A stretch of 64,000 nucleotides of DNA, taken from a bacterium. Its GTDB lineage: Bacteria > Desulfobacterota > DSWW01. Below, one piece after another: positions 3,669 to 41,047 of the stretch. Numbering within the stretch: the first letter of the stretch is position 1; each line of letters opens with the position of its first letter. The notes under the pieces are model-generated. The model saw nothing but the letters and a program-made list of their open reading frames with translations. It had not been told where the DNA came from and did no database searches. The translations under genes were made by a program, and so were the position numbers. The stretch covers positions 1-64,000 of the forward strand of contig JANQFG010000038.1 of assembly GCA_028277985.1 (NCBI GenBank), given 5' to 3'.

Positions 3669-5696
3669 ATGAAACGATTTGGAAAGCCTCGAGGTGCCGT
3701 CAGCACCGCTTCTTATGTATTGATATTTACCCTGCTCGGCCTTCTTTCGGCCATGCCTGCCACAGGCCAGCAAGTCGTCAACGTCGATTTCCGGTCAGGT
3801 GATGATGCGGAGACCTACGAAGGCGACAACGGCAGGTTCAGTACGTCCGGAGGCGAGGTCTGGAACCCGGTTGAGTTTGATGAGAACGAGACGGATCTGC
3901 TGGATGAATTCGGAGTCCCTACTCAGGTAGATGTGGAATACCCACCGGCCGGCTGTTGTTGTACGTATCCGGATGATGATGCTACCAACGATCTTCACGA
4001 TAGCGGCACCTGCGCAGGCTTCCAGATACTGGATCTTGAAGATGGAAAAACCTACGACCTGGCCATCTATGCAAGCCCCAACACGGGCTTCTTTTTGTCT
4101 GATGCGACGGGCGGGATCTTTGGTCCCTGCACCTATGATGGTCCCTTCAATTACGACATTCCCGGGGTCGAGGGTGGAGATTTCTGCTTGTTCTGGAATC
4201 TGATCCCCTTTGATGTGGGCGGTGGCAGATTCGGCATCGAGATTGGCGGCCCTGACGGCCAGATCGTCGGGTTCCAGCTCAACGGCGATTTCGGCGGTGG
4301 CCCAACTGCATGTGCGGATGATTATGAGTGCCCGGTTGGACAAATCTGCAGTGCAGCATCCCAGTGTGTCGATGCTCCTTCAAGGGTCGGGACGAATCCG
4401 GACCCTGACAGCAATTTTGACTCTCTCGTCGAGGGGCAGGAGACTTCGCTATACCTTAGCTTCCATGCTGAAGAGGGGGACCTGCAGGTTCAGGATGCGA
4501 ATGTGGTCTTTCCGGATGCATTCGAATTCAAACCTTTCAATCCTCTGGGTGGTCCACTCGGATACGTGGGATTCGACCTGGATGAAGACGGTGGGGTGGA
4601 TGTTACCTATGATATCCTCCCAGATCCGGACGATTCATCCGGCACCAAGGCCTTTGTTGACCTGAACGACAATGGTGAATTCGAGCGTCTTGTGGAGCCT
4701 CGAGTTGTTCAAAGCGATGGATCCATCATCCTCAATATCAACGCTCCGTCAGGGGATGGAGATCCGGAAACCCTCGAGGTTCCCCTGTCTGTGCGGATCT
4801 CGGTAAATCTGAATCCCGGTATCATCACGCCCATGATCCCCGGCTCCCACACGGTAGCATTCACCGGCATTTCCGTGGACCCGGACACAGGCAACGCTGA
4901 CGATGGCAGACACAACCATCCCTTGAGCTTTACCTTGAATTACCCGGCAGAAATCTTGCCCGACAGGGATGGTGACGGGATTCCCGACGACGTGGACGGT
5001 TGCCCGGACGATGGCAACAAAGCGGAACCGGGTCCCTGCGGCTGCGGGGTACCCGATACCGATAGTGATGTGGACGGAACGCCGGACTGTAATGACAACT
5101 GCCCGGATGATCCGAACAAGGTGGAGCCAGGAGCCTGCGACTGTGGTACGCCGGATACCGACAGTGACGGTGACGAAACGCCGGACTGCAATGACGACTG
5201 CCCGGATGACGGAAACAAGGTGGAACCGGGAGCCTGCGGCTGTGGCACCCCGGATACCGACACCGATCAGGACGAAACACCTGATTGCATTGACGGCTGC
5301 CCGGACGATGGCAACAAGGTCGAACCGGGACTATGCGGCTGTGGTGTTCCCGACATCGACAACGATGGGGACAACTACCCCGTGTGTTTGAATGACTGCG
5401 ATGACAGCGATGCAAGCATTCACCCGGGAGCTGAAGAGCTTTGCGACGAGGTGGACAATAACTGTGACGGGCAAGTAGATGAGGGATGCTCCGTTTGTGA
5501 TCCTAGTCTGTACATCGGTGATCTGGATGATGATTGTGACATCGACCGGGATGACGTGAGACTCCTTCTCGGATACAGAAACCAGCCGGCAAGCCAATGC
5601 CTCGAGTGCGATCTTGATGGAGACGGAACGATCACCGTTCTCGATGCCCGGATGCTGGTATTGCAGTGCACGCGACCAAGATGCGCGACGCAGTAG
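3669..5696 (+). CDS. Secreted protein with TSP3-like repeats, MopE motif and dockerin-like end (copy 2)
   Basis: The protein has 675 residues and is a paralog of the gene at 740, with the same domain order: signal peptide to PATGQ, beta-rich region, Cys module ECPVGQICSAASQC, Ca-type domain, TSP3-like repeats from about residue 433, MopE motif (DNNCDGQVDEGC, about 575-607) and dockerin-like tail (about 615-667). It has four full 33-residue repeats against six in copy 1, which accounts exactly for the 66-residue difference. The repeat-flanking domains are highly similar, while the patch around 3950-4190 has diverged most. The start ATG follows AAAGGAGG. The role is inferred as Ca-dependent surface or extracellular scaffold. 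Confidence 0.88.
   Translation: MKRFGKPRGAVSTASYVLIFTLLGLLSAMPATGQQVVNVDFRSGDDAETYEGDNGRFSTSGGEVWNPVEFDENETDLLDEFGVPTQVDVEYPPAGCCCTYPDDDATNDLHDSGTCAGFQILDLEDGKTYDLAIYASPNTGFFLSDATGGIFGPCTYDGPFNYDIPGVEGGDFCLFWNLIPFDVGGGRFGIEIGGPDGQIVGFQLNGDFGGGPTACADDYECPVGQICSAASQCVDAPSRVGTNPDPDSNFDSLVEGQETSLYLSFHAEEGDLQVQDANVVFPDAFEFKPFNPLGGPLGYVGFDLDEDGGVDVTYDILPDPDDSSGTKAFVDLNDNGEFERLVEPRVVQSDGSIILNINAPSGDGDPETLEVPLSVRISVNLNPGIITPMIPGSHTVAFTGISVDPDTGNADDGRHNHPLSFTLNYPAEILPDRDGDGIPDDVDGCPDDGNKAEPGPCGCGVPDTDSDVDGTPDCNDNCPDDPNKVEPGACDCGTPDTDSDGDETPDCNDDCPDDGNKVEPGACGCGTPDTDTDQDETPDCIDGCPDDGNKVEPGLCGCGVPDIDNDGDNYPVCLNDCDDSDASIHPGAEELCDEVDNNCDGQVDEGCSVCDPSLYIGDLDDDCDIDRDDVRLLLGYRNQPASQCLECDLDGDGTITVLDARMLVLQCTRPRCATQ
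4965..5380 (+). repeat. 99-nt tandem repeats encoding TSP3-like units (copy 2)
   Basis: Four full repeats plus a terminal partial repeat of the same 33-codon unit as at 2031-2660. Two fewer units than in copy 1, consistent with slippage or unequal recombination. Confidence 0.85.
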
Positions 5697-5782: not shown

Positions 5783-6250
5783 CTAAGGACAGTCGTGATA
5801 CACCCAAGCCCCCCTGCCTTCCAACTCGGGCACGTACACGTTGCATGAGTCCTCGCTCAAGGGATTGTCTTCCAGCCACACGTTGTCGTGCAGTCCGATC
5901 CCGGCGTTCTGCACCATTGGAGAGAGGTCGTACACCTCGTTCGAAGTCACATCGATGAAGTTGCCGTCCGTCTGGACGTAGTCCCACAGTGTTTGGGGGA
6001 GCTGGAGGTAGGTCTGCTGATAGAAGGGGACCGGTATGGGTTCGTACCAGAATCCGGAAATGGGAATCGGCAACAACAGGTAGAGAACGAAAAGATCGTA
6101 GCCGCCCGAGCTCCAGGCGAAGTTGGGCGGGGCCACAACCGGGGCCCCGTGTTTCGGGAAAAGGGGAGCGAAGCCCGCTCCGTAAACCGGGAAACAGGCG
6201 AAGCAGACCATGACGACAGCCACCCCCAGGACGACAAGCGTTCTCTTCAT
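5783..6250 (-). CDS. Small secreted protein of unknown function
   Basis: The protein has 155 residues with a clear signal peptide (MKRTLVVLGVAVVMVCFACFPVYG, cleavage near residue 24). The mature part is aromatic and proline rich (NFAWSSGGYDLFVLYLLLP.., GFWYEPIPVPFYQQ), giving the impression of a compact beta domain. Two Cys late in the protein (DSCNVYV and the C-terminal HDCP) could form a disulfide. ATG 6250 follows AAGGAGG with 5 nt spacing, so the upstream Met in the track is rejected. The gene stands alone between a REP-like palindrome and the divergent diadenylate cyclase gene. I do not recognise a family. Confidence 0.75.
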   Translation of the reverse strand: MKRTLVVLGVAVVMVCFACFPVYGAGFAPLFPKHGAPVVAPPNFAWSSGGYDLFVLYLLLPIPISGFWYEPIPVPFYQQTYLQLPQTLWDYVQTDGNFIDVTSNEVYDLSPMVQNAGIGLHDNVWLEDNPLSEDSCNVYVPELEGRGAWVYHDCP

Positions 6251-6278
6251 GGCACCCTCCTTCAAAAATATAGTCTAT

Positions 6279-6308: not shown

Positions 6309-6399
6309 TCATTTTCTTCGACTCGACAAGAGGCGGCAAGGGCCTTACCATGAGTTGTCTGAACGCTTCCCCCTTCACCGGACCGGTCCAAAGGATGTC

Positions 6400-8007
6400 A
6401 TGAACATTCCCTTTTTGCTGGAATGGAAGAACTTCCTCGATATCCTCGTGATCAGTTTTATCCTGCATCGGCTGTTCCTGCTCATGCGCGGCACGGTCGC
6501 CTTCCAGGTGTCGATCGGCCTGGTCTTCCTGTGGCTCTTTCAGGAGGCGGCCAACGCCGCGGGGTTGGTGCTGACGAGCTGGTTCTTCCGGGGTATCGGA
6601 GCGGTCGCCGTCCTCGTGCTCGTAGTGGTCTTCCGAAACGAGCTGCGGGAGATCCTGGTTCACACCAACCCGATCCGTTTCCTTCTGGGACGTTCCCGGC
6701 AGACCCGTGAGGTGGGTCATCACCTGATCGCGCAGGCCGCATTCCGGCTGTCCAACTGCCGGGTCGGAGCACTGATCGTGATCGAGAACCAGGACGAGTT
6801 GCGAGGCAATGTTCGAGGAGGTCTTCCCATTGACTCGAATCTGCTGCCCGAGGTTCTGGAGAGCATCTTTGCCAAGGAAAGCCCGATTCACGACGGTGCC
6901 GTCATCATTCGGGGAAACCGAATCGACCAGGCCGGAACTTACCTGCCCTTGACCGAGGAAGAGACCCTTCCACTGCACTTCGGTACGAGGCATCGAGCAG
7001 CCATAGGGTTGAGCGAAATATGCGACGCCGTGGTTCTGGTGGTGTCGGAGGAAAGGGGCGACATCTCTCTCGTCCATCGGCGGAACGTGGAGCGTATCCA
7101 TCATCCGGATCAGCTCGAGCAACGGCTCGACTTCCTGTTGATGACCCGAGATGCCGCGAAAGCAAAAGAACGAAAGGGCCGCGGGGCCTTGATGACCCAA
7201 GCAGGAGGCCTGTTGTTGACGTTTGTCCTGGTTTCCACCTTCTGGGGCCTCTACACGGGCAGGGAATTCTCGCTGATTTCGGTGAAGGCCCCGGTCTACT
7301 ATCGGGATATTCCGGACGGGTTACAGATGAAGAAGGCCTCGGCTGAAGAGGTCGAAGTGCAGGTGAGCGGCAGGCGCGGCCTGGTCAGCTCGCTCGATCC
7401 CCAGCAGGTGAGGGCATTCCTGAGCCTGGGCCGGATCCAGGAGGGAGAGCAGGTGCTCATGCTGAAATCCGAAAACATTCTTCTCTCGCCCGGGCTCGAG
7501 GTGGAACGGATCACTCCCTCTTCAATCACTGTGGAGATGGAGCACATTCACGAAAGAACGGTAAAGGTCATTGCGGATCTGACCGGGCCTCCGCCGGACG
7601 GCTTCGCGTCGGATTCGGTCCGGCTGAAACCGGATGCCGTGAAGATTCGAGGGCCGGCCACCCTGGTCGAAGGAATCACCAGCATCAAGACCCGGCCGAT
7701 CGATCTCAAGAGCCTGCGAGTTCGAGACGGAGAGGCTAGCCTGGATGCTTCGCTCTTGATCGAGTCTCCCTCCATCGAGCTGCCGGACCTGGCGAGAGGC
7801 GAAGTGCAGGTTAGTATCCGCTTCCGCACCGTGGAGGAGAAGCGCGAAAAGATCGCCGTCCGCACGCACACGGTGCGCAAAGGGGATACGCTCTACGAAA
7901 TCGGCAAGGACTACGGGGTGCGGGCCGAGACGATTCGAAACCTGAACGGCCTGAAGCCCGGCGAATACATCCAGCCCGGCCAGGAACTCAAGATCCCAAT
8001 CCCTTGA
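6400..8007 (+). CDS. Diadenylate cyclase CdaA-type fused to YbbR repeats and LysM
   Basis: The protein has 535 residues. Three N-terminal membrane helices (about 5-85) lead into a DisA_N/DAC cyclase domain (about 85-245) with both hallmark motifs, DGA (165-167) and GTRHRAA (195-201), so synthesis of c-di-AMP from two ATP is likely. A further membrane helix (about 267-287) is followed by two YbbR-like (CdaR) repeats on the outside and a C-terminal LysM (HTVRKGDTLYEIGKDYGV.., about 491-535), a peptidoglycan-binding module. In most bacteria CdaA and its regulator CdaR are separate proteins. ATG 6400 with AAAGGA upstream is chosen over the tracked TTG at 6355, because family members begin just before the first helix. 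A direct cell-wall sensing role for the fusion is an inference. Confidence 0.9.
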   Translation: MNIPFLLEWKNFLDILVISFILHRLFLLMRGTVAFQVSIGLVFLWLFQEAANAAGLVLTSWFFRGIGAVAVLVLVVVFRNELREILVHTNPIRFLLGRSRQTREVGHHLIAQAAFRLSNCRVGALIVIENQDELRGNVRGGLPIDSNLLPEVLESIFAKESPIHDGAVIIRGNRIDQAGTYLPLTEEETLPLHFGTRHRAAIGLSEICDAVVLVVSEERGDISLVHRRNVERIHHPDQLEQRLDFLLMTRDAAKAKERKGRGALMTQAGGLLLTFVLVSTFWGLYTGREFSLISVKAPVYYRDIPDGLQMKKASAEEVEVQVSGRRGLVSSLDPQQVRAFLSLGRIQEGEQVLMLKSENILLSPGLEVERITPSSITVEMEHIHERTVKVIADLTGPPPDGFASDSVRLKPDAVKIRGPATLVEGITSIKTRPIDLKSLRVRDGEASLDASLLIESPSIELPDLARGEVQVSIRFRTVEEKREKIAVRTHTVRKGDTLYEIGKDYGVRAETIRNLNGLKPGEYIQPGQELKIPIP

Positions 8008-8010
8008 AGC

Positions 8011-8060
8011 CGTCATTCCCGCGGAGCCTCTCCCTGCGAAGGCGGGGAGCGGGCATCCCT
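8011..8060. repeat. Dispersed repeat, family C (GTCATTCCCGC...GCGGGCATCC)
   Basis: Contains CGTCATTCCCGC and GCGAAGGCGGGGAGCGGGCATCCC, the arms of a widespread palindromic intergenic repeat. Related copies are at about 8954-9062, 15715-15762, 18125-18200 and 19521-19550. Located just after the diadenylate cyclase stop. Confidence 0.65.
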
Positions 8061-8104
8061 CCGCCTCGAGGCTAGCCCTGAAAGAGGTTCGCAGGATCCA
8101 TTTT

Positions 8105-8902: not shown

Positions 8903-8925
8903 GGTGCACCTCCTTCAATCATGGA

Positions 8926-9062
8926 CATTGCGAGCGAAGCGTGGCAATCCCCAATGAGCCGTCATCCCCGCCCCTGTCTACTACCTGCAGGGGCAGGCTC
9001 CGGCTGGGATCCCTGAGTGCCTCGTACCTCTGGATTCCTGCCTTCGCAAGAATGACGTCAAG
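8926..9062. repeat. Composite of dispersed repeats, families D and C
   Basis: ATTGCGAGCGAAGCGTGGCAATCCC (8928-8952) is a copy of the ATTGCGAGG...GCAATC palindrome (family D). It is followed by GTCATCCCCGCCCCTG... and ...TTCGCAAGAATGACG (family C). The stretch fills the gap between the MBL gene and the ABC operon. Confidence 0.6.
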
Positions 9063-9065
9063 CAC

Positions 9066-14290: not shown

Positions 14291-15541
14291 CTAGGGCTTG
14301 GCCTGGAACGTGACGAAGGGCTCGGACGCCAGGGCGTACTCCTCGGTCAGGTATTGCTCGTACCGCTCATCACCCTCTACGAATGCCTTGAAGAGTGAGA
14401 CCGTGAACAAGTTCGTGATGCGGTGGGCCTCGTCGATGTCCAGGGCCGGAGGGTTGCAGGGTTCGGTGAAAGCGGTCCCCAGGAGAAGATCGATCATCCA
14501 CTGCTTGATTCCCCTGACTTTCATGCCATGGATCAGGTCGCAGGAATTCGAGAAGGAGAAGTGCACAGCGTCCTCGAGGTCCGTCTGAAAGACCTGATCG
14601 CTCATGAGCCCGAAGGGACGGTCGTTGTTCTCCTCGATGGGCGTGGTTGTGTCATTGGTGCCCCCAATGATCAGGGTGGGCACGCTGATGGCTTCGAGCT
14701 CCCCGTCGCCGAACCAGGCAGAGGCGGGTGCGAGGGGCGCGATCGCATCCACCCGGGAGTCCGGAGGGATAGGCTCGAACCCCTCCGGCAGTTCGGAGGC
14801 GACCTCCTCAGGCGGGTCCGCCCCAAACCCTGCCGCCATGGCGAAACTCGTGAATCCTCCAAACGAGTGACCGCACACACCGATCCGCTCCGAATCGATC
14901 CTTCCATAGAAGGGGTCGCCTGCGTCCTCTGTCTTCTCGAGCATGCGCGTGATCAGGAAAGAGACGTCGAGCGGCCGCGCAACCATCATTTCCTCCAGAG
15001 GGGCGAAGGTGCCGCCGAGCTCGTCGAGCAGCGTATTGCCGATATGACCTGGAGCCACCACGATGAACCCATGGCTTGCAAGAATCTCGGTCAGGAAGAA
15101 GGACTGGTACCGAAGGCCGCCGGACCCGTGGGAAAAAACGATAAGCGGAAACTCGTCCGCCCCCGAGACAGGCGGTGCGTCGAAGGCCAGTTCAGAAGGA
15201 CTGGTGAATACGACCGGCAGGGAGAGTATCTCGACGGTCACCTGGTACAGGCTCGGGCCGCCGGTGGCGTCCTTTTGGTCGACAGGGTACCAGGCGTCCA
15301 CGGGTAACTCCCGGCCCCCGCGATCCGCATCCACGATCGTGAACGAGCTGCGGCCCACCGAAAATGGGCCGACCTCGTCGGGTGAGTGGAGTCCATCGCC
15401 GCCCGAGTGACCGAAGGCTTCCTCCGTATCCGACCCGCACGCGGTCACGGCGAGGACGGCCGCCATCGTGAAGAGGACCACAAGAAGCCGTAGCGGCCGG
15501 GCACTGTGAAGGATGTGAACCGAAGTCGCAGGCACATTCAT
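14291..15541 (-). CDS. Secreted alpha/beta-hydrolase lipoprotein (PAF-acetylhydrolase/dienelactone-hydrolase-like)
   Basis: The protein has 416 residues. The lipobox AVTAC gives Cys35. The oxyanion region is LIVFSHGSGG (about 133-142), the nucleophile elbow GHSFGG places Ser226, an acid follows in IIGGTND, and AVHFSF likely carries the catalytic His. The sequence pattern and length fit bacterial platelet-activating-factor acetylhydrolase-like or chlorophyllase-like hydrolases acting on esters. AAGGAGG precedes ATG 15541. It is one of three secreted lipoprotein enzymes between 12.7 and 19.5 kb. The substrate is unknown. Confidence 0.85.
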   Translation of the reverse strand: MNVPATSVHILHSARPLRLLVVLFTMAAVLAVTACGSDTEEAFGHSGGDGLHSPDEVGPFSVGRSSFTIVDADRGGRELPVDAWYPVDQKDATGGPSLYQVTVEILSLPVVFTSPSELAFDAPPVSGADEFPLIVFSHGSGGLRYQSFFLTEILASHGFIVVAPGHIGNTLLDELGGTFAPLEEMMVARPLDVSFLITRMLEKTEDAGDPFYGRIDSERIGVCGHSFGGFTSFAMAAGFGADPPEEVASELPEGFEPIPPDSRVDAIAPLAPASAWFGDGELEAISVPTLIIGGTNDTTTPIEENNDRPFGLMSDQVFQTDLEDAVHFSFSNSCDLIHGMKVRGIKQWMIDLLLGTAFTEPCNPPALDIDEAHRITNLFTVSLFKAFVEGDERYEQYLTEEYALASEPFVTFQAKP

Positions 15542-28591: not shown

Positions 28592-29941
28592 ATGGTGCTG
28601 AAAAAGAAATTCAATGAAATACTCTCGGACACGAAGTTCTCCGAAATAATTGTTGGGTCAACTTGGGCTCTGTCCGCCCGTATCCTGACCATTGGCCTCG
28701 GCCTTGCCATCTATATCATTATCACACGCATCTACGGTGCAGAGATGCTGGGCATCGTGGCAATGATCAATTCCTTTCTAACCCTGGTTACCATCTTGAC
28801 CGTTCTAGGTACCAATACTTCGATCCTGCGCCTTCTTCCCGAACACGTGGTCAGATACTCTCAGACTTCTGCTCTGAAAGTTTATCGGAAGATCCAAAGC
28901 CTAGTCATCGGGGTTTCCTTGTTCACAAGTATTCTTCTTCTTTGTTGTTCTGCGGTAGTAGCTGACAAGGTATTCTCAAAGCCGCATCTGTCCTTCTACT
29001 TTGCTATCGCTGCGGTCTTCGTGATGTTCAAATCGCTAATGATTCTGAATACACAGGCGGTCCGTGGACTGAAACTGGTCCGGGCATTCGCTTTGATGCT
29101 GCTCATGCCCCACGGATTCAATCTCTTGTTATTGATTGTTCTTGGCGTGCTGGTGGCCACGGTAGATGTACCTGTGTATGCTCAGTTGGGTAGTTTCGCC
29201 CTGACCGGAGTACTCGGATGGGGGATCATGGAGTCTACTTTCAAGCAGCGAATCCGACCACAGGATAGAGTCCAATCGATACCCATAACAGAGATTGTTT
29301 CCATCTCTTTGCCAATGCTGATGACCGCAACCATGACTCTCATCATTAGTGAGACTGGGGTGATTATGCTGGGTATGTTTCGAAGCGAGGTCGATGTGGG
29401 ATACTATGCTATTGCTGTCAGGGTTGGTACATTGACCTCGTTCGTCCTTCAGGCAGTCAATTCCATAGTAGCGCCAAAATTCTCGGAACTCTTTCATTCG
29501 AACCAGGTTGAAGATCTATTCTATGTGGCCAAGAAGTCGGCAAAACTTATTTTTTGGACTACGACCCCCGTATTACTGGGGTTTGTTATATTTGGAAAAG
29601 ATATTCTAGGTCTTGTCTTCGGCAGTGAGTTTGCTTTGGCATATCCAGCGTTGGTGATCCTGGTTTTGGGCGAGTTTGTGAACTCGATTTCCGGATCTAC
29701 AGCATTGTTCATGAACATGACAGGCAACCAAAAAACGTTTAGAAACATAATGCTCCTTGCCGCAATGATAAATATCACACTGAATCTGGTACTCATCCCT
29801 AGACTTGGAATCCATGGCGCGGCAATTGCGGCCTCGTCCAGCCTGGTTGTTTGGAACGTGACCACCCTGATCTACATAAAGCTGAGATTCGGTATGACCA
29901 CGGGGTACTTTCCGTTTCTTGCATCAACTATGAACCAATAA
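28592..29941 (+). CDS. Polysaccharide flippase (Wzx/PST-MATE type)
   Basis: The protein has 449 residues and about 12 hydrophobic helices. The N-terminal ..STWALSARILTIGLGLAIYIIITRIYG is the classical start of the oligosaccharide flippase family, and the late ..NITLNLVLIPRLGIHGAAIAASSS.. is its conserved end. It would move the undecaprenyl-linked repeat unit across the inner membrane. It lies inside the locus with dehydratase upstream and sugar-modification genes downstream. ATG 28592 has no strong RBS. Confidence 0.9.
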   Translation: MVLKKKFNEILSDTKFSEIIVGSTWALSARILTIGLGLAIYIIITRIYGAEMLGIVAMINSFLTLVTILTVLGTNTSILRLLPEHVVRYSQTSALKVYRKIQSLVIGVSLFTSILLLCCSAVVADKVFSKPHLSFYFAIAAVFVMFKSLMILNTQAVRGLKLVRAFALMLLMPHGFNLLLLIVLGVLVATVDVPVYAQLGSFALTGVLGWGIMESTFKQRIRPQDRVQSIPITEIVSISLPMLMTATMTLIISETGVIMLGMFRSEVDVGYYAIAVRVGTLTSFVLQAVNSIVAPKFSELFHSNQVEDLFYVAKKSAKLIFWTTTPVLLGFVIFGKDILGLVFGSEFALAYPALVILVLGEFVNSISGSTALFMNMTGNQKTFRNIMLLAAMINITLNLVLIPRLGIHGAAIAASSSLVVWNVTTLIYIKLRFGMTTGYFPFLASTMNQ

Positions 29942-30081
29942 CGAGGAGTCATGAGTTACCTGGAATATTCAAGATGCCCTGAACAAGAGAATCAGGATTG
30001 CTGCATAAATGATAGACGTGTTCAGCGCTAGCTGCTATAGGTGGAATTGTAGAATATTCGAACAATCAGCAGGGATAGGAC

Positions 30082-31215
30082 ATGAGCGAATACCAGACAT
30101 GTAGAAACTGTGTTATGGATACAACCGATTCCAGAATTACCTTTGATGGTGAAGGAATTTGCGATCACTGCAATAACTTCTACAAGAATATCCTGCCAAA
30201 CTGGAATACCGATGATACGGGAAGGATAGAACTTGAAAGAATAGCAGAAAAGATCAGAAAGCAGGGAGTTGGCAAGGACTTCGATTGTATCATGGGGATG
30301 AGCGGAGGAATAGACAGCTCCTACCTGACATATATCGTAAAGGAAGAACTTGGTTTGCGGCCTCTTGTCTTTCATGTGGATGCCGGTTGGAACTCCCAGG
30401 AAGCCGTCAACAACATAGAGAAACTAGTTGATGGGCTAGGTTTGGATCTGTATACGGAAGTAATCGACTGGGAGGAGATGAAAGATCTTCAATTGGCGTT
30501 CTTCAAAGCCGGCGTACCGCACCTCGACACACCTCAGGATCACGCCTTTTTTGCGACTATGTACAATTTTGCAGCCAAATACAAGATCAAATACATTCTA
30601 ACAGGGGCGAACTTTTCTACTGAATGCGTTAAGAATCCAATTGAGTGGCATTACCCTGCCAGTGACCTTGTTCAGCTAAGGGATATTCACAAGAAGTTCG
30701 GTAGTCGTCCGTTAACCAGATTCCCCTTAGCAAATATCCTCAAGTATAAGATCTACTATCGCTATTTCAGGGGGATCACGGTCGTAAAACCATTAAACTA
30801 CGTCCCATATATAAAGCTGCAGGCGATGAAGCTACTGGCAGATCGTTTTGGATGGCAGGAATACCCACAGAAGCATTTTGAATCACGGTTCACTAAATTC
30901 TATGAAGGCTATTGGCAGCCCAAGAAGTTCAACATCGACAAAAGAAAGACCCAATTCTCAAGCTTAATACTAACAGAACAAATGACCCGGGAAGAAGCCC
31001 TGGAGAAGCTTTCAAGGCCAGCATACGACGAAAGCACGATAAAGCAAGAATTTGAGTATGTAGCAACCAAGCTCGGCATTACTGTGGAGGAACTACAGGG
31101 CTATATGGACGCCCCGAATAGAACTTTTAGGGACTACAAATCACAAAGGAGCATATTCAAACTGGGGACGAAAGTGCTGACTGCAACAGGGCTGGAAAAG
31201 CGGGTCATAAGATGA
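30082..31215 (+). CDS. N-acetyl sugar amidotransferase (PseA/WbpG-like)
   Basis: The protein has 377 residues. The N-terminal C-x2-C pairs (CRNCVMDTTDSRI..CDHCNNF) suggest a zinc site. The ATP-pyrophosphatase PP-loop is SGGIDSSY. Known family members (WbpG, PseA, LgaA-type) transfer an amino or acetamidino group to a sugar, with ammonia supplied by HisH/HisF-like partners. Here the stop overlaps the start of hisH2 by 4 nt (ATGA), and hisF2 follows, reproducing the WbpG-HisH2-HisF2 trio. Predicted product: an amidino-substituted N-acetyl sugar for the surface polymer. Confidence 0.9.
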   Translation: MSEYQTCRNCVMDTTDSRITFDGEGICDHCNNFYKNILPNWNTDDTGRIELERIAEKIRKQGVGKDFDCIMGMSGGIDSSYLTYIVKEELGLRPLVFHVDAGWNSQEAVNNIEKLVDGLGLDLYTEVIDWEEMKDLQLAFFKAGVPHLDTPQDHAFFATMYNFAAKYKIKYILTGANFSTECVKNPIEWHYPASDLVQLRDIHKKFGSRPLTRFPLANILKYKIYYRYFRGITVVKPLNYVPYIKLQAMKLLADRFGWQEYPQKHFESRFTKFYEGYWQPKKFNIDKRKTQFSSLILTEQMTREEALEKLSRPAYDESTIKQEFEYVATKLGITVEELQGYMDAPNRTFRDYKSQRSIFKLGTKVLTATGLEKRVIR

Positions 31216-31826
31216 TAGCAATCATCGATTATGGCTTGGGGAATATCCGAGCCTTTGCGAACGTATACAAGAACTTGGATATGCCACATAAGATCGTTTC
31301 AACAAGCGATGATCTTAAGAACTCTACCAAGATAGTATTGCCGGGAGTCGGTGCCTTTGATTACGCTATGGAGTTACTGCAAGGATCTGGATTGCGAGAA
31401 CCTCTTGACGAGCTTGTGCTCCGAGGCAAGATGCCGGTTTTGGGAATCTGTATTGGCATGCAGATTCTTGCTCACTCCAGCGAAGAGGGGCGTTCACCAG
31501 GGCTTGGTTGGATTGATAGTACCGTAGTGAAGATCGATACTTCAAGATTGAATCACAAAACCCATCTTCCTCATATGGGATGGAATAGCATAAGCCCGGC
31601 CAGGAACAATCCCCTGTTTCGGGAAATTGACGAAGGCGCTCGTTTCTATTTTCTCCATTCCTACTATATCAAGTGCAGAAACGAAGAGAACATAGTTGCC
31701 ACCACTGACTATGGAGGAGTGTTTCCGTGTGCCGTGAACTCAGGTGACATCTATGGAGTTCAATTCCATCCGGAGAAGAGCCATCAAAATGGTGTTAGAC
31801 TTCTCAAGAACTTTGGGAATTTATGA
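31212..31826 (+). CDS. hisH2: HisH2-type glutamine amidotransferase for sugar amidination
   Basis: The protein has 204 residues and is a class I glutaminase. The nucleophile is in GICIGMQ and the His/Glu pair in QFHPEKS; the glycine-rich oxyanion region is LPGVGAFD. It is homologous to HisH of histidine synthesis, but its context between the sugar amidotransferase and a non-canonical HisF shows it serves ammonia delivery to WbpG-like chemistry. It overlaps both neighbours by 4 nt, implying tight translational coupling and equimolar synthesis. Confidence 0.9.
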   Translation: MIAIIDYGLGNIRAFANVYKNLDMPHKIVSTSDDLKNSTKIVLPGVGAFDYAMELLQGSGLREPLDELVLRGKMPVLGICIGMQILAHSSEEGRSPGLGWIDSTVVKIDTSRLNHKTHLPHMGWNSISPARNNPLFREIDEGARFYFLHSYYIKCRNEENIVATTDYGGVFPCAVNSGDIYGVQFHPEKSHQNGVRLLKNFGNL

Positions 31827-32635
31827 GAATGTTACTGCCAAGGATAATCCCCTGTCTATTAGTTCAAAATAAGGGCCTTGTGAAAACGGTGAAATTCAAG
31901 AGCCCGAAGTATGTCGGCGACCCGATAAACGCAGTTAAGATCTTCAATGAAAAGGAGGTTGATGAACTTATCGTGCTCGATATTGATGCTACGGCAGAGC
32001 GAAGAGAACCTGACTATAAGATGATTGAAAATCTAGCCGTCGAGTGCCGTATGCCTCTCTGCTATGGCGGAGGAATTAAGACGGTTGATCAAGCACAAAG
32101 GATATTGGGGCTAGGTGTAGAGAAAATAGCAGTGAGTTCCATCGCAATAGAGGAGCCGGAAATAGTATCTAGAATGGCCGAGCGAGTCGGCAGCCAGAGC
32201 GTGATCGTGGTCATAGATGTGAAGAAACGTCGTTTTCTGGATAGATATGACGCATATACGTTGAATGGCAAGAAGAACACCCACAAATGCCCGATTGAGT
32301 TTGCTCTGAAAATGGAAAGACATAATGCGGGAGAAATAGTCATTAACTCCATCGACAATGATGGAATAATGAAGGGATATGATCATTCCTTGGTTGATAA
32401 GATCCGCCGATCCATCACGTTACCATTGACCGTACTCGGCGGGGCTGGGTCCCTGGAAGACATCCGTGAGCTAATCAATCAACACGGAATCATTGGCGCT
32501 GCTTGTGGCAGTCTGTTTGTTTTCAAAGGCAAATACCGGGCGGTACTCATAAACTATCCAAGCCGATCTGAGAAAGACGTGCTTGCCTTTTCCGATAGGA
32601 GCGACCTTGAGTCTGCCCGAAAACAATTGTCATAG
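31823..32635 (+). CDS. hisF2: HisF2-type partner of sugar amidotransferase
   Basis: The protein has 270 residues and a TIM barrel of the HisF family (LCYGGGIKTVDQAQ, VVIDVKK, GEIVINSIDNDG, VLGGAGSLEDI). The first catalytic Asp of true HisF (D11 in RIIACLDV) is replaced: here RIIPCLLV. The second Asp (D130, in VVIDVKK) is kept. Loss of D11 argues against imidazole-glycerol-phosphate synthesis and for a role as ammonia channel for the neighbouring PP-loop enzyme. It starts inside the end of hisH2. Confidence 0.9.
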   Translation: MRMLLPRIIPCLLVQNKGLVKTVKFKSPKYVGDPINAVKIFNEKEVDELIVLDIDATAERREPDYKMIENLAVECRMPLCYGGGIKTVDQAQRILGLGVEKIAVSSIAIEEPEIVSRMAERVGSQSVIVVIDVKKRRFLDRYDAYTLNGKKNTHKCPIEFALKMERHNAGEIVINSIDNDGIMKGYDHSLVDKIRRSITLPLTVLGGAGSLEDIRELINQHGIIGAACGSLFVFKGKYRAVLINYPSRSEKDVLAFSDRSDLESARKQLS

Positions 32636-32669
32636 GCCTTTTTGAATAAGCCCCATAGGGGTCATCAAT

Positions 32670-33746
32670 ATGCGAAAAGTTGTCCATGTTGTCGGCGCAC
32701 GTCCTAACTATATGAAAGCAACCCCAGTCATTTTGGGTTTGGAGAGACACACACACATCGAACAGATCCTTGTGCACACAGGCCAACACTATGACGAAAA
32801 CATGTCGAAAATCTTCTTCGATCAATTGGGAATGCCCGAACCCGATTTTAACCTTGAAGTAGGTTCCAGCTCACATGCCGTACAGACAGCTGAAGTAATG
32901 ATCCGTTTTGAAGCGGTGGTGGAGGATCTTCAGCCGGATCTGGTGCTTGTCTACGGGGATGTAAATTCTACCCTGGCGGCTGCAGTCGTCGCTGCAAAGC
33001 TGGGGATAAGGGTAGGGCACGTGGAAGCTGGCCTGCGGTCATGGGACCGCTCAATGCCTGAGGAAATCAATCGAGTCCTAACGGACCAAATAAGTGACAT
33101 TCTTTTCACGCCCTCTGATGATGGAGATAGGAATCTCAATAGGGAGGGGATAAGCTCCAAGAAAGTTCACATGGTTGGAAATGTGATGATTGACACGCTG
33201 GTTCGTTTGCTCGAGAAGGCACGCCAACCAGAGATACCAGAATTGCAGGAGAGATTTGCGCTCGTCACATTGCATCGGCCTTCGAATGTGGACGATCTGT
33301 CAGTGTTTCGCAGCATAATCAATATGCTCAATGAAATCAGCGGATCTCTTCAAATCATCTTCCCGATTCATCCTCGGACAAGGAAGATGATTACCGAAGG
33401 TAATATCAGTGTTCAACAGAACAAGGGATTCATCATAAGGGATCCCTTGGGGTATCTTGAGTTCCTATGGCTTCAGGAACATGCGACAGTGGTTCTGACG
33501 GATTCTGGGGGCATCCAGGAAGAGACTACATTCTTACAAGTGCCTTGTTTGACTCTAAGGGACAGTACCGAGCGCCCAATCACCGAAAGTCTTGGTACGA
33601 ATATTGTGGTGGGCAATGATATGGCTCTCGCCAAAGAGGAGGTTCTCAGAATTCTGAACGGCAATGGAAAAGTAGGGAGTATTCCTCCACTGTGGGATGG
33701 GAAGACAGGAGAACGTATAGCTGGAATCTTGGCTGAGGAGTCCTAG
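32670..33746 (+). CDS. wecB: UDP-N-acetylglucosamine 2-epimerase, non-hydrolysing
   Basis: The protein has 358 residues and a GT-B fold. Diagnostic blocks are VGARPNYMKATPVI, GHVEAGLRSWDRSMPEEINR, LTLHRPSNVD-like (VTLHRPSNVD) and LTDSGGIQEE. It interconverts UDP-GlcNAc and UDP-ManNAc, or a diacetamido-uronate analogue as with WbpI. Given the WbpG-HisH2-HisF2 trio directly upstream, a WbpI-like role in a 2,3-diamino mannuronate route is possible but not decided by sequence. The gap to hisF2 is 34 nt. Confidence 0.9.
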   Translation: MRKVVHVVGARPNYMKATPVILGLERHTHIEQILVHTGQHYDENMSKIFFDQLGMPEPDFNLEVGSSSHAVQTAEVMIRFEAVVEDLQPDLVLVYGDVNSTLAAAVVAAKLGIRVGHVEAGLRSWDRSMPEEINRVLTDQISDILFTPSDDGDRNLNREGISSKKVHMVGNVMIDTLVRLLEKARQPEIPELQERFALVTLHRPSNVDDLSVFRSIINMLNEISGSLQIIFPIHPRTRKMITEGNISVQQNKGFIIRDPLGYLEFLWLQEHATVVLTDSGGIQEETTFLQVPCLTLRDSTERPITESLGTNIVVGNDMALAKEEVLRILNGNGKVGSIPPLWDGKTGERIAGILAEES

Positions 33747-33835
33747 AAAGAAGTACGTTTTCCCGGTCAGATATTACCGTTTCTTTCGCCTATATGGAGA
33801 CCCCAAGAATCGATGTCCAGGGGCTAGAGGGTTGT

Positions 33836-36001
33836 ATGAAACAGATTTTACAGAACTTGAAGAGCGGTGAAATGGTCCTGGAAGATGTGCCGGCACCTAA
33901 GGCCAGTCCAGGGCACTTGCTTGTTCAGACTACTCGATCTCTGATTTCCGCCGGGACGGAAAGGATGTTGATTGACTTCGGCCGAGCAGGGTACCTTGAC
34001 AAGGCCCGGCAACAACCGGAGAAGGTGAAGCAAGTCATCAATAAGGTGAGGACCGACGGTATAGGGCCCACGCTGGAAACAGTCGCGGCAAAGCTTGATC
34101 AGGCCATACCTCTGGGATATAGCAATGTTGGCCGCGTACTAGAAGTTGGTGAGGGGGTCAAAGGGTTTGCCCCAGGAGATCGAGTAGTATCCAATGGGCG
34201 GCATGCTGAGGTGGTGTGTGTTCCAGTGAATCTAACGGCCCGAATTCCGGAGGGTGTGGATGACGAAACCGCTACATTCACAGTCATTTCATCGATAGCT
34301 CTGAATGGAGTGCGTCTCTTGGCACCCGCTCTGGGTGAGTCGGTATGCGTCTTTGGTCTTGGGCTAATTGGCCTCGTAGCCTGTCAGTTGTTGATGAGTA
34401 GTGGAGTCAGGGTTGTCGGTTTCGATTATGAGAAGAGCCGAGTAGATTTAGCTACTGAATTCGGTGCGCATGCTCTGAAGGTTTCGGATCAGATGGATCC
34501 GGTTCAAGCGGCGCTGTCTTTCAGCAAGGGACAGGGAGTGGATGGCGTGCTCGTTACAGCTGCCACGAAAAGCCACGAACTCATACATCAAGCGGCTCAG
34601 ATGTCTCGCAAGCGCGGGCGTATTGTCTTGACCGGGGTTACGGGATTGAATCTGAATCGGGCTGACTTCTATGAAAAGGAGCTTTCCTTTCAAGTATCTT
34701 GTTCTTATGGCCCCGGGCGTTACGACCCTAGTTATGAAGAAAAAGGAAATGACTATCCTATTGGATTTGTACGGTGGACGGAACAGCGCAATTTTGAAGC
34801 GATATTGGATCTTTTGAGACTTGGTCGCTTGAATGTAGCCCCTTTGACCTCGAAAACCTATTCCTTCGACCAAGCAAAAGAAGCATATGACCTGCTTCAT
34901 GACAAAAACTCTATCGGGATCATATTGGAATACCCTGAAGTTGCTCAGGACTCCGGCGACGACGGGAGCTTGGTCAAGAGGGTGGTAGCGATCAAGTCGC
35001 CATCAATCAAGGGAGAAAAGGTAGTCGTCGGTGTGATTGGAGCAGGGAATTTTACACAACTTCGCCTATTGCCGGTTCTAAAGAAGAATTCGGTTCGTCT
35101 AAAATGGATTGCCAGCTCACAGGGTATTACCAGCTCACACGCCGCTCGAAAGTTCGCTTTCGAGAACAACACGACAGACTATGAGGCTATTCTAGATGAT
35201 GATGAGGTGAACTCTGTTTTCATCACTACTCGCCATTCATCGCACGCCTCCTTAGTAATGAAAGCCCTGAAGGCTGGAAAGAATGTGTTTGTTGAAAAGC
35301 CCCTATGCATTACCCCGGACGAATTGCAGCAGGTGTCGTTGGCCTATCAGGCGGCCTGCAAAGATCAAGAAGGAAAACTGCTGCTTATGGTGGGCTTCAA
35401 CAGAAGATTTTCAGCACTATCTTCCGTGATCCGGGGCATGATACAAGACAGACAGAAACCTCTCTCCACCGTTTTCTTGGTCAATGCCGGTGATATTCCC
35501 GCTGACCATTGGGTACAGGACCCCACCGAGGGGGGGGGGCGGATAATCGGTGAAGCCGTTCACTTCATCGACTATCTACATTTCTTAACAGGGGCCCCGA
35601 TCTCTCGTGTGAACGCCATGAAATCGAATCCTGAGGAACCTCGACCGAGAGAGGACAATGCTGCTATCACGTTAGCTTTTGAGGATGGTTCAATTGGGCA
35701 AATCAACTACTTTTCGGACGGGTCCAAGAGCTATCCTAAGGAAAGCATGGATCTCTTTTTCGATGGAAAGATCTTGAGACTAAACAATTTCAAGACGCTA
35801 CACGGGTTTGGGCTTAGATCCTTTAGGAAGAAGGCGCTCTATGGTCAAGACAAAGGTCACGCGAAAGGCTTCATGTCCTTTGTTGAAGCAGTGGAGAATG
35901 GACGTGATGCGCCCATACCATTTGAGAGTCTAATCAATGTCCATCAAGCAGCCTTCGCTACGCTGGAATCTATGCGGCATAACGTGCAAATCTCTATTTG
36001 A
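33836..36001 (+). CDS. Two-domain oxidoreductase: Zn-type alcohol dehydrogenase plus Gfo/Idh/MocA
   Basis: The protein has 721 residues. The N-terminal half (about 1-375) is a medium-chain dehydrogenase/reductase (VCVFGLGLIGLVACQLL Rossmann motif). The C-terminal half (about 395-721) is a Gfo/Idh/MocA oxidoreductase (VVGVIGAGNFTQ..., then NVFVEKPL with the catalytic Lys and EAVHFIDYLHFLTG). This fusion recurs in surface-polysaccharide loci, often beside heparinase II/III proteins, and probably oxidises or epimerises a nucleotide sugar. Family members begin MKQ.LQN.K.GE, so ATG 33836 is preferred over the tracked 33794. Confidence 0.9.
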   Translation: MKQILQNLKSGEMVLEDVPAPKASPGHLLVQTTRSLISAGTERMLIDFGRAGYLDKARQQPEKVKQVINKVRTDGIGPTLETVAAKLDQAIPLGYSNVGRVLEVGEGVKGFAPGDRVVSNGRHAEVVCVPVNLTARIPEGVDDETATFTVISSIALNGVRLLAPALGESVCVFGLGLIGLVACQLLMSSGVRVVGFDYEKSRVDLATEFGAHALKVSDQMDPVQAALSFSKGQGVDGVLVTAATKSHELIHQAAQMSRKRGRIVLTGVTGLNLNRADFYEKELSFQVSCSYGPGRYDPSYEEKGNDYPIGFVRWTEQRNFEAILDLLRLGRLNVAPLTSKTYSFDQAKEAYDLLHDKNSIGIILEYPEVAQDSGDDGSLVKRVVAIKSPSIKGEKVVVGVIGAGNFTQLRLLPVLKKNSVRLKWIASSQGITSSHAARKFAFENNTTDYEAILDDDEVNSVFITTRHSSHASLVMKALKAGKNVFVEKPLCITPDELQQVSLAYQAACKDQEGKLLLMVGFNRRFSALSSVIRGMIQDRQKPLSTVFLVNAGDIPADHWVQDPTEGGGRIIGEAVHFIDYLHFLTGAPISRVNAMKSNPEEPRPREDNAAITLAFEDGSIGQINYFSDGSKSYPKESMDLFFDGKILRLNNFKTLHGFGLRSFRKKALYGQDKGHAKGFMSFVEAVENGRDAPIPFESLINVHQAAFATLESMRHNVQISI

Positions 36002-36019
36002 TAAACATGACTGACTGAC

Positions 36020-36895
36020 ATGAAAGCGGCAAGAGTGTTGAAATGCCCCATTATTATTGTTGGAGCCGGCCGATCGGGAACCACGATGATAAAGGACGCC
36101 CTGTCCTACCATCCTGATATTTGCGCAACCCCATATGAGCTGAACTATCTTTGGAGATACGGAAATAGTCGTCTAAGCCACGACATGCTTGATCCAGAAC
36201 AACATCTTTCCCCAAGGAAAGCGAAGTACATCCGGGGAAAACTTGAAAAAATGTTGATACTGTCTGGGAAACAATACTTGGTTGAGAAAACCGTTGCCAA
36301 TGTATTGCGCCTCTCCTACGTGCACGGCATTTGCCCGGATGGAAAGGTTATCCATATCATTAGAGATGGAAGAGCAGTTACCGCCTCGGCGATGATACGG
36401 TGGAAAGCGAGAGCAACGAGTTCTTACCTGATGTCCAAGGGATTAACAATTCCTCCTTTAGACATCCCTCGGGTGGGCCTCAGTTTCCTCTTGAACCGGA
36501 TAAAGCGGCGTATTCGTAAGCGAGACTATATTCAAAGTTGGGGCCCCCGTTGGCCGGGCTTTGATGAAGATGTTGCTCGACTTCCTTTGATGGAAATCTG
36601 TGCCATGCAATGGAAGAAATCTATTGAGTCGGCCTCTTCCCAGAGACACACTTTACCGAAAGGTCAATATACTGAGATTCGATACGAAGAGTTCGTAACG
36701 GATCCAAGCAGAGGATTTGATCAACTCTCTGAATTCTTGAGTATTGATTTCTCGGCTCCTGCCTTCAAATCTCAGATTGAAGAAGGCATTACTACCTCCA
36801 GCCTGGACAAATGGAAAACATCTTTTTCAGGACAGGACATGAATAGACTATACTCCATAATTGGCCAAACTCTTGGGACGCTAGGATACGAATGA
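36020..36895 (+). CDS. Sulfotransferase family protein (1)
   Basis: The protein has 291 residues. The 5'-phosphosulfate-binding loop is IIIVGAGRSGTTMI near the N-terminus and the 3'-phosphate-binding strand is VIHIIRDGRAVTASAM, the two hallmarks of PAPS-dependent sulfotransferases. The C-terminal EIRYEEFVTDP and LDKW elements are also typical. It probably sulfates a sugar hydroxyl in the polymer or its lipid-linked precursor. Its stop overlaps the next gene's ATG by 4 nt. Confidence 0.87.
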   Translation: MKAARVLKCPIIIVGAGRSGTTMIKDALSYHPDICATPYELNYLWRYGNSRLSHDMLDPEQHLSPRKAKYIRGKLEKMLILSGKQYLVEKTVANVLRLSYVHGICPDGKVIHIIRDGRAVTASAMIRWKARATSSYLMSKGLTIPPLDIPRVGLSFLLNRIKRRIRKRDYIQSWGPRWPGFDEDVARLPLMEICAMQWKKSIESASSQRHTLPKGQYTEIRYEEFVTDPSRGFDQLSEFLSIDFSAPAFKSQIEEGITTSSLDKWKTSFSGQDMNRLYSIIGQTLGTLGYE

Positions 36896-38172
36896 AAAAG
36901 AAGGGTTTGAACATTTGGATAATCAATCACTACGCTGGCAATCTGAAGTACGGCATGGAATATCGACATTTCTTTCTCGCCAGGCACCTACGTGCTGCCG
37001 GACATTCCCCTAAGATAATATCTTCTTCATTCCATCATCTATTTACCGAACTTCCCGTCGTGAACCAGAAAATGACCTTTGAGACCTTCGAGGAAATACC
37101 CTTTGTATTCATTCGCACACCTAGATATGAGGGAAACGGAATCGGCCGGCTGAAGAACATCCTCATCTTTTCGCTAAGGGTTAACAGGGAATACAAGAAC
37201 CTTGAGAAAGAGTTTGGAAGACCGGACGTACTATTGGGCTCATCTCCTCACCCCTTCGTCTATTCAAATCTTTCGAAGTTAAGGAGAGTATACGGCATCC
37301 CGGCTCTATACGAAGTAAGAGACCTGTGGCCGCAGATGCTGATAGAATTGGGTTCCATTTCGAAGTTCCATCCACTAAGTCTCTTGTTCTATTGGATCGA
37401 GCGCCGAGCGTTGCTGAGTTCTGATGGTGTTATTTCTCTTTGGCATTCTGCGGATGAATATATGCTTCGTCACGGGTTGACGAAGGAGCGTTATCACTAT
37501 TTGCCCAACGGCATAGAGCTAGACGCCGAAGGAGGTGACCAGGAAATCGATAGCTCTCATCCGTTAATGAAAAAGGTTGAGGAGAGAAAATCCAAAGGCA
37601 AGTTCCTGGTAGGCTATGGTGGTAGCCATGGGTATGCAAATCCATTGTCCGTCATGATCGAGGCATGCAAGCTATTGAAGAAGAGGAACATTCATGATGT
37701 TGAATTCTTCTTGGTCGGGGACGGCCCAGATAAAGACCGTGTTGTCAGCCAGGCGAAAGCGTTGAAGTTAGAGAACATTCACTTCCATGGCTATGTTGCT
37801 AAACCTGTTATCATGGCTTTCTACAAAATGCTGGATGTGGCATTCATGGGGTTAAGGGATCTGCCCTTGTTCAAGTATGGCCCTACCCCTAACAAGCTCA
37901 TGGACTACTTGGCAGCCGGCAAGCCGATTATCTATGCCATCAATTCCAGCTTCGATCCCGTTCAGGAGGTCGGTGCCGGCGTGAGTATTCCTTCAGATGA
38001 CCCTGAGCAGTTGGTTGAAGCAATTATAAGAATCAAAGCGCTGTCCGGCTCAGAAAGAGAAAGGATGGGACGGGCTGGCCGGCGATATGCTGAACAGGAA
38101 CTCAACTTCAAGACAATCGCAGGCAAGCTAGCAGACGTGGCTCAGAGATGTATTGAACAAAGGACTAGCTGA
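36892..38172 (+). CDS. Glycosyltransferase family 4 (GT-B)
   Basis: The protein has 426 residues. The C-terminal donor domain shows GYGGSHGYANPLSVMIEACKLL and the E-x7-E-like region ..GPTPNKLMDYLAAGKPIIYAINSSFDPVQEVGAG. The acceptor domain has PALYEVRDLWPQ. It is WbuB-like in appearance and would add a sugar to the lipid-linked repeat unit at the cytoplasmic face. It overlaps the sulfotransferase gene (ATGA). Confidence 0.9.
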   Translation: MKKKGLNIWIINHYAGNLKYGMEYRHFFLARHLRAAGHSPKIISSSFHHLFTELPVVNQKMTFETFEEIPFVFIRTPRYEGNGIGRLKNILIFSLRVNREYKNLEKEFGRPDVLLGSSPHPFVYSNLSKLRRVYGIPALYEVRDLWPQMLIELGSISKFHPLSLLFYWIERRALLSSDGVISLWHSADEYMLRHGLTKERYHYLPNGIELDAEGGDQEIDSSHPLMKKVEERKSKGKFLVGYGGSHGYANPLSVMIEACKLLKKRNIHDVEFFLVGDGPDKDRVVSQAKALKLENIHFHGYVAKPVIMAFYKMLDVAFMGLRDLPLFKYGPTPNKLMDYLAAGKPIIYAINSSFDPVQEVGAGVSIPSDDPEQLVEAIIRIKALSGSERERMGRAGRRYAEQELNFKTIAGKLADVAQRCIEQRTS

Positions 38173-38177
38173 ACCTT

Positions 38178-40322
38178 ATGCTTGGCAGAGTTGAGAGTAT
38201 TTGGGAAGAATGCAGAAGAGTAGGCTTAGGGCCTTTCAGTTATCGAGTGGCGCGTGAGATCTCCCAGCGTAGCGGGCTCTCCTGTTTGATGAGACCGATT
38301 AAGGAATTCCGAGACGACTACTTCCTAAGGAAATGTAGGTCAGGTACACCTGATGACCCCGATGAGTTTCTGTCTTGGTGGAAAGAGCAGAAGAATCTGT
38401 TCTTCATTGATACTCTCGACAACTATCCCAACCACCTCAACAGGTGGCTTGAAGAAGGCGGCCGCGGCACCCTATATAACACTGCACGGGAGGCGTGTTC
38501 CGGCCGGATACTGGCTTTTCGTGGCTGGGTAGCTGACTATGGTAGCCCTGTAGATTGGAACAAGAACCCTGCGAAAGGGAATAGTTGGCCAAGTGACCTT
38601 CACTCCTTGCGGCTATTGAGCCGAAGTAGAAAAGAAGAACATGGCGATATCAAACTGACCTGGGAAATGGGTCGATTCCTGCATATACCTGATATCGTAC
38701 GAGCCTTCTTCCTCTCTGGGGATGAAGAATTGATCCAGCAGCTTTTTGATCAGATATCTTCGTTTGAAACCTTGAATCCGTTGCATCGCGGGCCTCATTG
38801 GATTAGCGAACAAGAAGTGGCTATACGGACCTGTATGTTCGTTTTGGTATTGTCTGTGCTTAGAAATAGCCAGACCCTTACAGGATCAAAGACTCAATTG
38901 CTATTTCGTCAAATAGCCGCAGGCGCCGAATACTGTTACAAGGAAATCGAGTACTCAAGGCAGTGCATCCGAAATAATCATCTTATTGGAGGCGCCTTGG
39001 GTATGTACCTTCCAGGATGTATATTGCCCTGGCACAAATACGCAGTCCGTTGGCGAAAGAAAGGAAAGAGGTTATTGCTTGAAGCGTTGAGGACGCAGTG
39101 GCATTCCGATGGCGGATACACACAGCCTTCTCACAATTATCATCGTCTAAGTATCAATTACCTTCTCTGGGTGCTTCGGTTAGCGCAGATACAGAGCGAT
39201 GAAGACCTTGTTGAGGCGATCCTCTCAAGATTTAGGAAATCTTTTGATCTGTTAAATGAAATGGTGGATGATTCTTCCGGACATCTGCCCAACTGGGGTC
39301 CGAATGATGGTGCGCAGTTTTGCCCCTGGACGTCTTGTGAGTACCCTGATTTCAGACCCTTGCTGACATCGATGCGATACGCCTTGAGTAAGAAGCGTCA
39401 GTATCAAGACGGCCCTTGGGACGAACAACTCTTGTGGTTGTGGGGTGAGGAGGCTGTTTCGGCGCCCGTTAGCCCTGCTCCTAAGCAAAGCAAGCGAAAT
39501 TTCAATGTCGCTGGGTTGCACATAATACGCCGAAACAATGACTTCTCTGTCCTGAGATGTGGGCCGATTACATCTCGTTATGGCCAACAAGCGGATCAGC
39601 TTCATGTAGATGTCTGGTGGAGAGGCAGAAACGTCTTGATCGATCCTGGGAGCTACCTCTATGGAGACCCTTCTTTTCACGACTGGTTTCGCTCTACGCA
39701 TGCTCACAATACGTTGACAATCGATAACGAGAGCCAGATGGTCCCATATCGTCAGTTTCTCTTTTTGAAGTGGCCTAATGCAGGCCTACTGAGGATGCCT
39801 GAGCCTCCTCGTAGTATTATCGAATGGTGCTGTGGTTGGCATGATGGATATCGTCGGCTGGAACGCGATATCATTCACATTCGGGTGTTAGCCGCGTTGA
39901 GAAAAGGGGGTTGGTTAGTTGTGGACTGGCTGAAAGCTCTTTCGTCCGGCCGAGGAGAGCAGCTCGCCCAACGCTGGCATATGGCGGATGGAGCGTTTTC
40001 GTACAGTAATGATCGTCTAGATCTTGACTTGGATGTCGGGACCTTTTCGATTGTCTGGAGGGCTTCTGATTCAATGGAAGCAAGAATGACCCGGGCCAGC
40101 GACTCTCCTGTTGACGGCTGGACGTCTCGCTACTATGGAAGAAAAGAGCCTTCGCCAACGTTGACTCTTCAAGCGACTCTGCGAAAAGAGTTCTGTTGTG
40201 CAGCTGTTTTCGGGGACGAACGGGATGTAGAGGATGCCGATCTTCAAGTTGAGAATATGAGGGTTATTATTGAAGGGGATACGCTCGTGGCCCCAAACGT
40301 GCAAGATTCTGTGAAGCCGTGA
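38178..40322 (+). CDS. Heparinase II/III family protein (polysaccharide lyase-like)
   Basis: The protein has 714 residues. An (alpha/alpha)-toroid N-terminal half carries QCIRNNHLIGGALGMYLPG and HSDGGYTQPSHNYHRLSINYLLW. The C-terminal beta-sandwich domain carries QADQLHVDVWWRGRNVLIDPGSYLY and STHAHNTLTIDN, the Heparinase II/III signature. No signal peptide is apparent, so it may act in the cytoplasm or be exported otherwise. Such proteins are frequent inside bacterial capsule loci next to two-domain oxidoreductases. Cleavage of a uronate-containing chain by beta-elimination is the family activity. Confidence 0.87.
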   Translation: MLGRVESIWEECRRVGLGPFSYRVAREISQRSGLSCLMRPIKEFRDDYFLRKCRSGTPDDPDEFLSWWKEQKNLFFIDTLDNYPNHLNRWLEEGGRGTLYNTAREACSGRILAFRGWVADYGSPVDWNKNPAKGNSWPSDLHSLRLLSRSRKEEHGDIKLTWEMGRFLHIPDIVRAFFLSGDEELIQQLFDQISSFETLNPLHRGPHWISEQEVAIRTCMFVLVLSVLRNSQTLTGSKTQLLFRQIAAGAEYCYKEIEYSRQCIRNNHLIGGALGMYLPGCILPWHKYAVRWRKKGKRLLLEALRTQWHSDGGYTQPSHNYHRLSINYLLWVLRLAQIQSDEDLVEAILSRFRKSFDLLNEMVDDSSGHLPNWGPNDGAQFCPWTSCEYPDFRPLLTSMRYALSKKRQYQDGPWDEQLLWLWGEEAVSAPVSPAPKQSKRNFNVAGLHIIRRNNDFSVLRCGPITSRYGQQADQLHVDVWWRGRNVLIDPGSYLYGDPSFHDWFRSTHAHNTLTIDNESQMVPYRQFLFLKWPNAGLLRMPEPPRSIIEWCCGWHDGYRRLERDIIHIRVLAALRKGGWLVVDWLKALSSGRGEQLAQRWHMADGAFSYSNDRLDLDLDVGTFSIVWRASDSMEARMTRASDSPVDGWTSRYYGRKEPSPTLTLQATLRKEFCCAAVFGDERDVEDADLQVENMRVIIEGDTLVAPNVQDSVKP

Positions 40323-40388
40323 TTCTGTATTTCTCAATTAGGGTTTTAAGACGACTGCCTATCTGTGAACTAGTATACAAGTATATCG

Positions 40389-41036: not shown

Positions 41037-41047
41037 GAGAGCATGAG

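Follow-up and report, generated by a model that had tools for sequence, protein, structure and literature searches.

A CdaA-YbbR diadenylate cyclase fusion ending in a LysM domain: a possible wall-tied c-di-AMP synthase in Desulfobacterota

Through membrane helices the regulator CdaR binds the diadenylate cyclase CdaA, whose activity it can increase or decrease (PMC10243994, PMC8573169, PMC9259658). The signal sensed by CdaR/YbbR and the way in which it alters CdaA are an open question (PMC8573169, PMC9259658). An earlier note on the DNA described here stated that CdaA and CdaR are normally separate. This is true for most bacteria; however, a review reports a fused CdaA-CdaR in some streptococci (PMC10243994), and CdaA-YbbR fusions are frequent in Desulfobacterota.

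The window, which is the whole stretch of 64,000 nucleotides that was analysed (positions 1 to 64,000 of contig JANQFG010000038.1, assembly GCA_028277985.1, from a Desulfobacterota bacterium), has a gene at 6400-8007 (+) that encodes a fused CdaA-YbbR-LysM diadenylate cyclase of 535 aa. In the open-reading-frame listing a single uninterrupted frame runs from a possible TTG start at 6355 or from ATG 6400 to the stop codon at 8005-8007. ATG 6400 is the likely start because AAAGGA, its likely ribosome-binding site, is located at 6390-6395 (+) and the homolog alignment begins there. There are no in-frame stops around 7200, GC3 is 0.70-0.84 in each segment of the gene with no change of frame in any segment, and the remaining two forward frames have 29 and 5 stops. 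A divergent gene at 5783-6265 (-) shares its intergenic region with the fusion gene; its 160-aa product begins like a signal peptide and has no Pfam matches. The window also has two long secreted proteins (719-2965 and 3669-5696) with near-identical N-termini; the one at 3669-5696 contains acidic DxDxDG-type repeats and has no Pfam matches.

Pfam, hydropathy and an AlphaFold2 model agree with the layout proposed in the earlier note, in which one chain continues from a CdaA-type cyclase through an extra membrane helix into YbbR repeats and a C-terminal LysM. A search for PF02457, PF07949 and PF01476 found all three in one frame and in that order, with YbbR spread over two stretches. All of the features that follow are on the forward strand (+). 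The N-terminus has the three membrane helices of a CdaA-type protein (6424-6630), seen in the hydropathy and as model helices 9-29, 33-54 and 57-77. The corresponding CdaA_N profile (PF19293) matches weakly, at 18.7 bits with a cut-off of 23.8 bits, and scores over the cut-off in three relatives (L038, L039 and L118). The diadenylate cyclase (DAC) domain (PF02457, 6733-7080) has a Pfam value of 4.7e-37 and resembles CdaA/DacA crystal structures in Foldseek, with E values to 1e-15. It carries both HDGA and GxRHRxA, as expected of a CdaA-type enzyme. The DGA catalytic motif (HDGA, 6892-6900) and the RHR motif (GTRHRAA, 6988-6996) are intact as had been noted, and these and the intact SEE motif are invariant in 26 homologs.

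A fourth membrane helix (7183-7263, residues 262-288) is found in both the hydropathy and the model. Its cytoplasmic flank has 7 Lys/Arg against 3 Asp/Glu; by the positive-inside rule, the C-terminal part (YbbR and LysM) is therefore predicted to be periplasmic. YbbR domain 1 (PF07949, 7291-7536) and YbbR domain 2 (7561-7782) follow, with a Pfam value for the two stretches of 2.2e-15. When the family profile was compared with structures, it matched a diadenylate cyclase (9g69, 2e-65) and YbbR structures, among them the CdaR domain of Listeria (5hqh, 1.7e-7). The YbbR domains are thus behind a membrane helix and, in the predicted topology, outside the cytoplasm, as in CdaR. The C-terminal LysM domain (PF01476, 7867-7998) matches its profile over the cut-off (3.1e-14), has the beta-alpha-alpha-beta fold in the model and is kept in five further genomes. 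The model consists of the first three membrane helices, the DAC domain, one long helix, two beta domains and the LysM fold. Its mean pLDDT is 84 (about 93 in LysM), and its pTM of 0.40 leaves the relative placement of the domains unresolved. The domain architecture and membrane topology of the fused protein are well supported.

The window genome has three DAC genes. The first (L001), elsewhere in the genome, is an ordinary cdaA followed by cdaR and preceded by a folP-like gene; the second is the fusion; the third (L003) encodes a protein of 297 aa whose DAC domain is C-terminal. Judged by these genes, the fusion is a second cyclase beside an ordinary cdaA-cdaR pair, so that another source of c-di-AMP is present in the genome. 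A tree of 135 cyclase parts, built by a quick method, has one branch (SH-aLRT 99) that separates all fused proteins from all separate CdaA, and in it the ordinary CdaA of the window genome clusters with the CdaA of its congeners. With the NCBIfam equivalog TIGR00159 the fused protein scores 180.8 bits, and the cut-off is 188.8; it would be classed as CdaA-like but outside this curated equivalog. Among 395 Desulfobacterota genomes searched, 163 had a strong match and about half of these hold a single-frame fused protein; within this sample no fused protein but that of the window reaches a LysM. The named relatives that match are mostly Thermodesulfobacteriota. No fused copy was found in the same-genus genomes G001 and G002; in G001 it was sought just past the counterpart of window gene 14291-15541, where the contig begins with a different gene. 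The CdaA-YbbR fusion itself is a known kind that is widespread in this phylum, and what is new here is the LysM.

The nearest homologs of the fusion (44-54% identity) are all fused, rather than separate genes split at about 7200, the arrangement that the earlier note had named as the sign of an assembly error. The order CdaA-YbbR-LysM recurs in frame in homologs from five further genomes, which came from a targeted search of related classes, so that their number gives no overall frequency. One (L038) is on a short contig of an Acidobacteriota-labelled MAG, CSMAG_733. A second (L181), from a genome of the same class, is 87% identical to it over the available part and ends at the contig end; given this second genome, mis-binning of L038 is less likely. 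The others are L167 in G795, L168 in G797, which is a single contig, and L169 in G805. The dN/dS of the LysM (Nei-Gojobori, in-house script) is 0.10 for L038/L181, where a 14-residue linker gives 0.69, and 0.28 for L167/L168, although the segments are short (45-46 codons) and the values rough. The low ratios therefore indicate that the LysM is kept by purifying selection. The LysM copies group in a clade with a support of 97, although the LysM columns had been filtered out by occupancy. L166, a member inside this clade, has no LysM: its gene has a clean stop and the sequence downstream is without one. One gain and one loss of the LysM would be the simplest reading. The branch of the window protein in this tree is long and its exact position is unsure. 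G795 and G797 each have one fused copy with the LysM and one without.

Several genes next to the fusions are related to c-di-AMP or to the wall. In G795 a PgpH-type 7TM-HD phosphodiesterase gene (7TMR-HDED/7TM/HD, L184:1840-4113, +) precedes the LysM fusion by 95 bp on the same strand; in G797 a C-terminal PgpH-type remnant is at the equivalent place, next to a run of N (a scaffold gap). In both genomes it is the LysM copy that the PgpH-type gene adjoins. The PgpH type is a family of c-di-AMP phosphodiesterases; the window genome also holds a gene of this type. An OmpA-domain lipoprotein-like gene is convergent to the fusion in G795 and G797, the domain being called by Pfam on the G797 copy and by a similar N-terminus on the G795 copy. 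In four Geobacter/Desulfuromonas-type relatives a LysM-LysM-NlpC/P60 wall hydrolase gene comes immediately after a LysM-less fusion (L008:227-1360 (-), L049:4454-5554, L053:4507-5550, L054:4461-5528), and in a member of the Desulfobacterales (L048) the fusion is followed directly by a gene for a LysM coiled-coil protein. These neighbors suggest that a link to the wall also exists between adjacent genes. A LysM match in G026 belongs to a separate downstream NlpC/P60 gene and was rejected as part of a fusion. A short secreted DUF2914 protein (about 150 aa, Pfam 1e-19 on two examples) is encoded directly upstream in 27/57 fused loci (e.g. L041, L043 and L051), mainly in Desulfobacterales and Syntrophobacterales, with a median gap of 4 bases. 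It is a candidate periplasmic partner of CdaA-YbbR fusions; no functional study of DUF2914 was found in the open-licence literature. None of the PgpH-type, OmpA-lipoprotein, LysM-NlpC/P60, LysM coiled-coil or DUF2914 genes adjoins the window fusion, no conserved operon partner was found across the whole LysM subfamily, and no c-di-AMP riboswitch (RF00379) was found in the window genome.

The contig fits its genome. The MBL-fold (metallo-beta-lactamase-fold) gene downstream of the fusion has a 77% identical counterpart in the same-genus genome G001, where it is followed by the counterpart of window gene 14291-15541. The intergenic repeats at about 8008-8065 and 8917-9064 are found on many contigs of the window genome (G000) and also in G001 and G002. 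Because of this shared gene, gene order and repeats, the contig appears to belong to the window genome, and a mis-binned contig is unlikely. A run of genes at 28592-46261 has a low GC3 of about 0.5 and translations that resemble surface polysaccharide synthesis; it is probably a horizontally acquired island. At 8.85 Mb, the window genome is roughly double those of its two congeners, which measure 4.7 Mb and 3.8 Mb; the smaller of them is 85% complete.

The anatomy of the protein suggests that a fused CdaA-CdaR-type inner-membrane c-di-AMP synthase has gained a peptidoglycan-binding tail, and that its output depends somehow on a tie to peptidoglycan through the LysM (probability about 0.5). The cytoplasmic DAC domain would produce c-di-AMP, and beyond the fourth helix the two YbbR domains would form a periplasmic stalk; both the product and the periplasmic placement are what knowledge of the families would predict. 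The terminal LysM would grip the N-acetylglucosamine strands of the wall. Contact of the LysM with the wall is plausible, since the domain is conserved and its predicted side of the membrane is the outer one, and family knowledge makes it probable that it binds peptidoglycan. With the CdaR part joined to the enzyme and tipped by the LysM, binding to the wall could exert a pull on the cyclase or gather it into clusters. Wall attachment, spacing or clustering on the glycan could then be relayed along the stalk and through helix four to the bundle of CdaA helices, where it would alter the pairing of the DAC domains and hence the rate of synthesis. The strictest form of this reading, a one-molecule sensor in which peptidoglycan held in the protein's own LysM directly switches cyclase activity, is tentative. 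The wall-tied reading is favored by the domains, the motifs, the model, the branch that sets fused proteins apart from separate CdaA, the LysM clade, the selection on the LysM, the PgpH-type neighbor in G795 with its remnant in G797, the PgpH-type gene of the window genome, the LysM genes that follow fusions in relatives and the known effect of CdaR on CdaA. Counting against it are the many fused cyclases, most of those found, that have no LysM and are presumably functional, the LysM-less L166 inside the clade, the ordinary CdaA-CdaR pair in the same genome, the lack of a fused copy in G001 and G002 and the low pTM of the model.

The same anatomy is explained if the LysM is a passive anchor that brings the enzyme to places where the wall grows or into a periplasmic complex, the enzyme's activity being set by other inputs (a YbbR ligand, helix contacts or GlmM). 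This is a serious possibility, if one we would not bet on. The LysM is a common anchoring module, it is absent from most fused cyclases, and the pairing of fused copies with and without it in two genomes looks as if location alone differed. However, only a short linker lies between the regulatory YbbR stalk and the LysM, so an anchored cyclase could still feel force or clustering. It is improbable that the fusion instead makes another nucleotide after evolutionary drift, or has little activity left, and serves chiefly as a sensor of c-di-AMP or of the envelope. Its status as a second copy next to an ordinary CdaA and its long tree branches would agree with drift, but the invariant DGA, RHR and SEE motifs, the close match of the cyclase domain to CdaA structures and the PgpH-type gene adjoining the LysM fusion in G795 do not. 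That a frameshift or assembly artefact fused two or three genes, as the draft state of the genome (291 contigs, 7.85% contamination) might allow and as the earlier note wished to see checked, is refuted by independent copies with an identical domain order in five other genomes, one of them a single contig, and further by the stop-free frame with uniform GC3, the purifying selection on the LysM and the same-genus gene neighbors and repeats.

The fusion places a cyclase, YbbR and a wall-binding domain on one natural chain, and the LysM-less copies in the same genomes are controls. The question of whether the wall controls c-di-AMP therefore becomes a deletion experiment. If true, a one-molecule sensor would reveal the signal of at least one kind of CdaA/YbbR system. 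The coupling of c-di-AMP to the wall, studied mostly in Gram-positive bacteria, would be extended to a Gram-negative phylum.

Compared with CdaA (DacA; TIGR00159/PF02457), the fused protein has the same three N-terminal helices, DAC domain, HDGA and GTRHRAA, and its best PDB matches are CdaA-type; it differs by the added fourth helix, YbbR domains and LysM and by its clade apart from separate CdaA. Like CdaR (YbbR, PF07949), it has one helix followed by extracytoplasmic YbbR domains with a profile match to Listeria CdaR 5hqh, but these share a chain with the cyclase and end in a LysM, and there are two of them where CdaR of lactic acid bacteria has three or four (PMC10243994). The fused CdaA-CdaR proteins of streptococci (PMC10243994) and Desulfobacterota likewise have the cyclase and YbbR on one chain. 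Among all the fused proteins examined, only members of the LysM subfamily carry the LysM. No paper describing a nucleotide cyclase with a LysM was found in the open-licence literature. The domain (PF01476) is usually carried by hydrolases, lipoproteins or spore proteins; the one described here is a canonical LysM of 44 residues, extracytoplasmic by prediction as in those proteins, but it is carried by a nucleotide cyclase.
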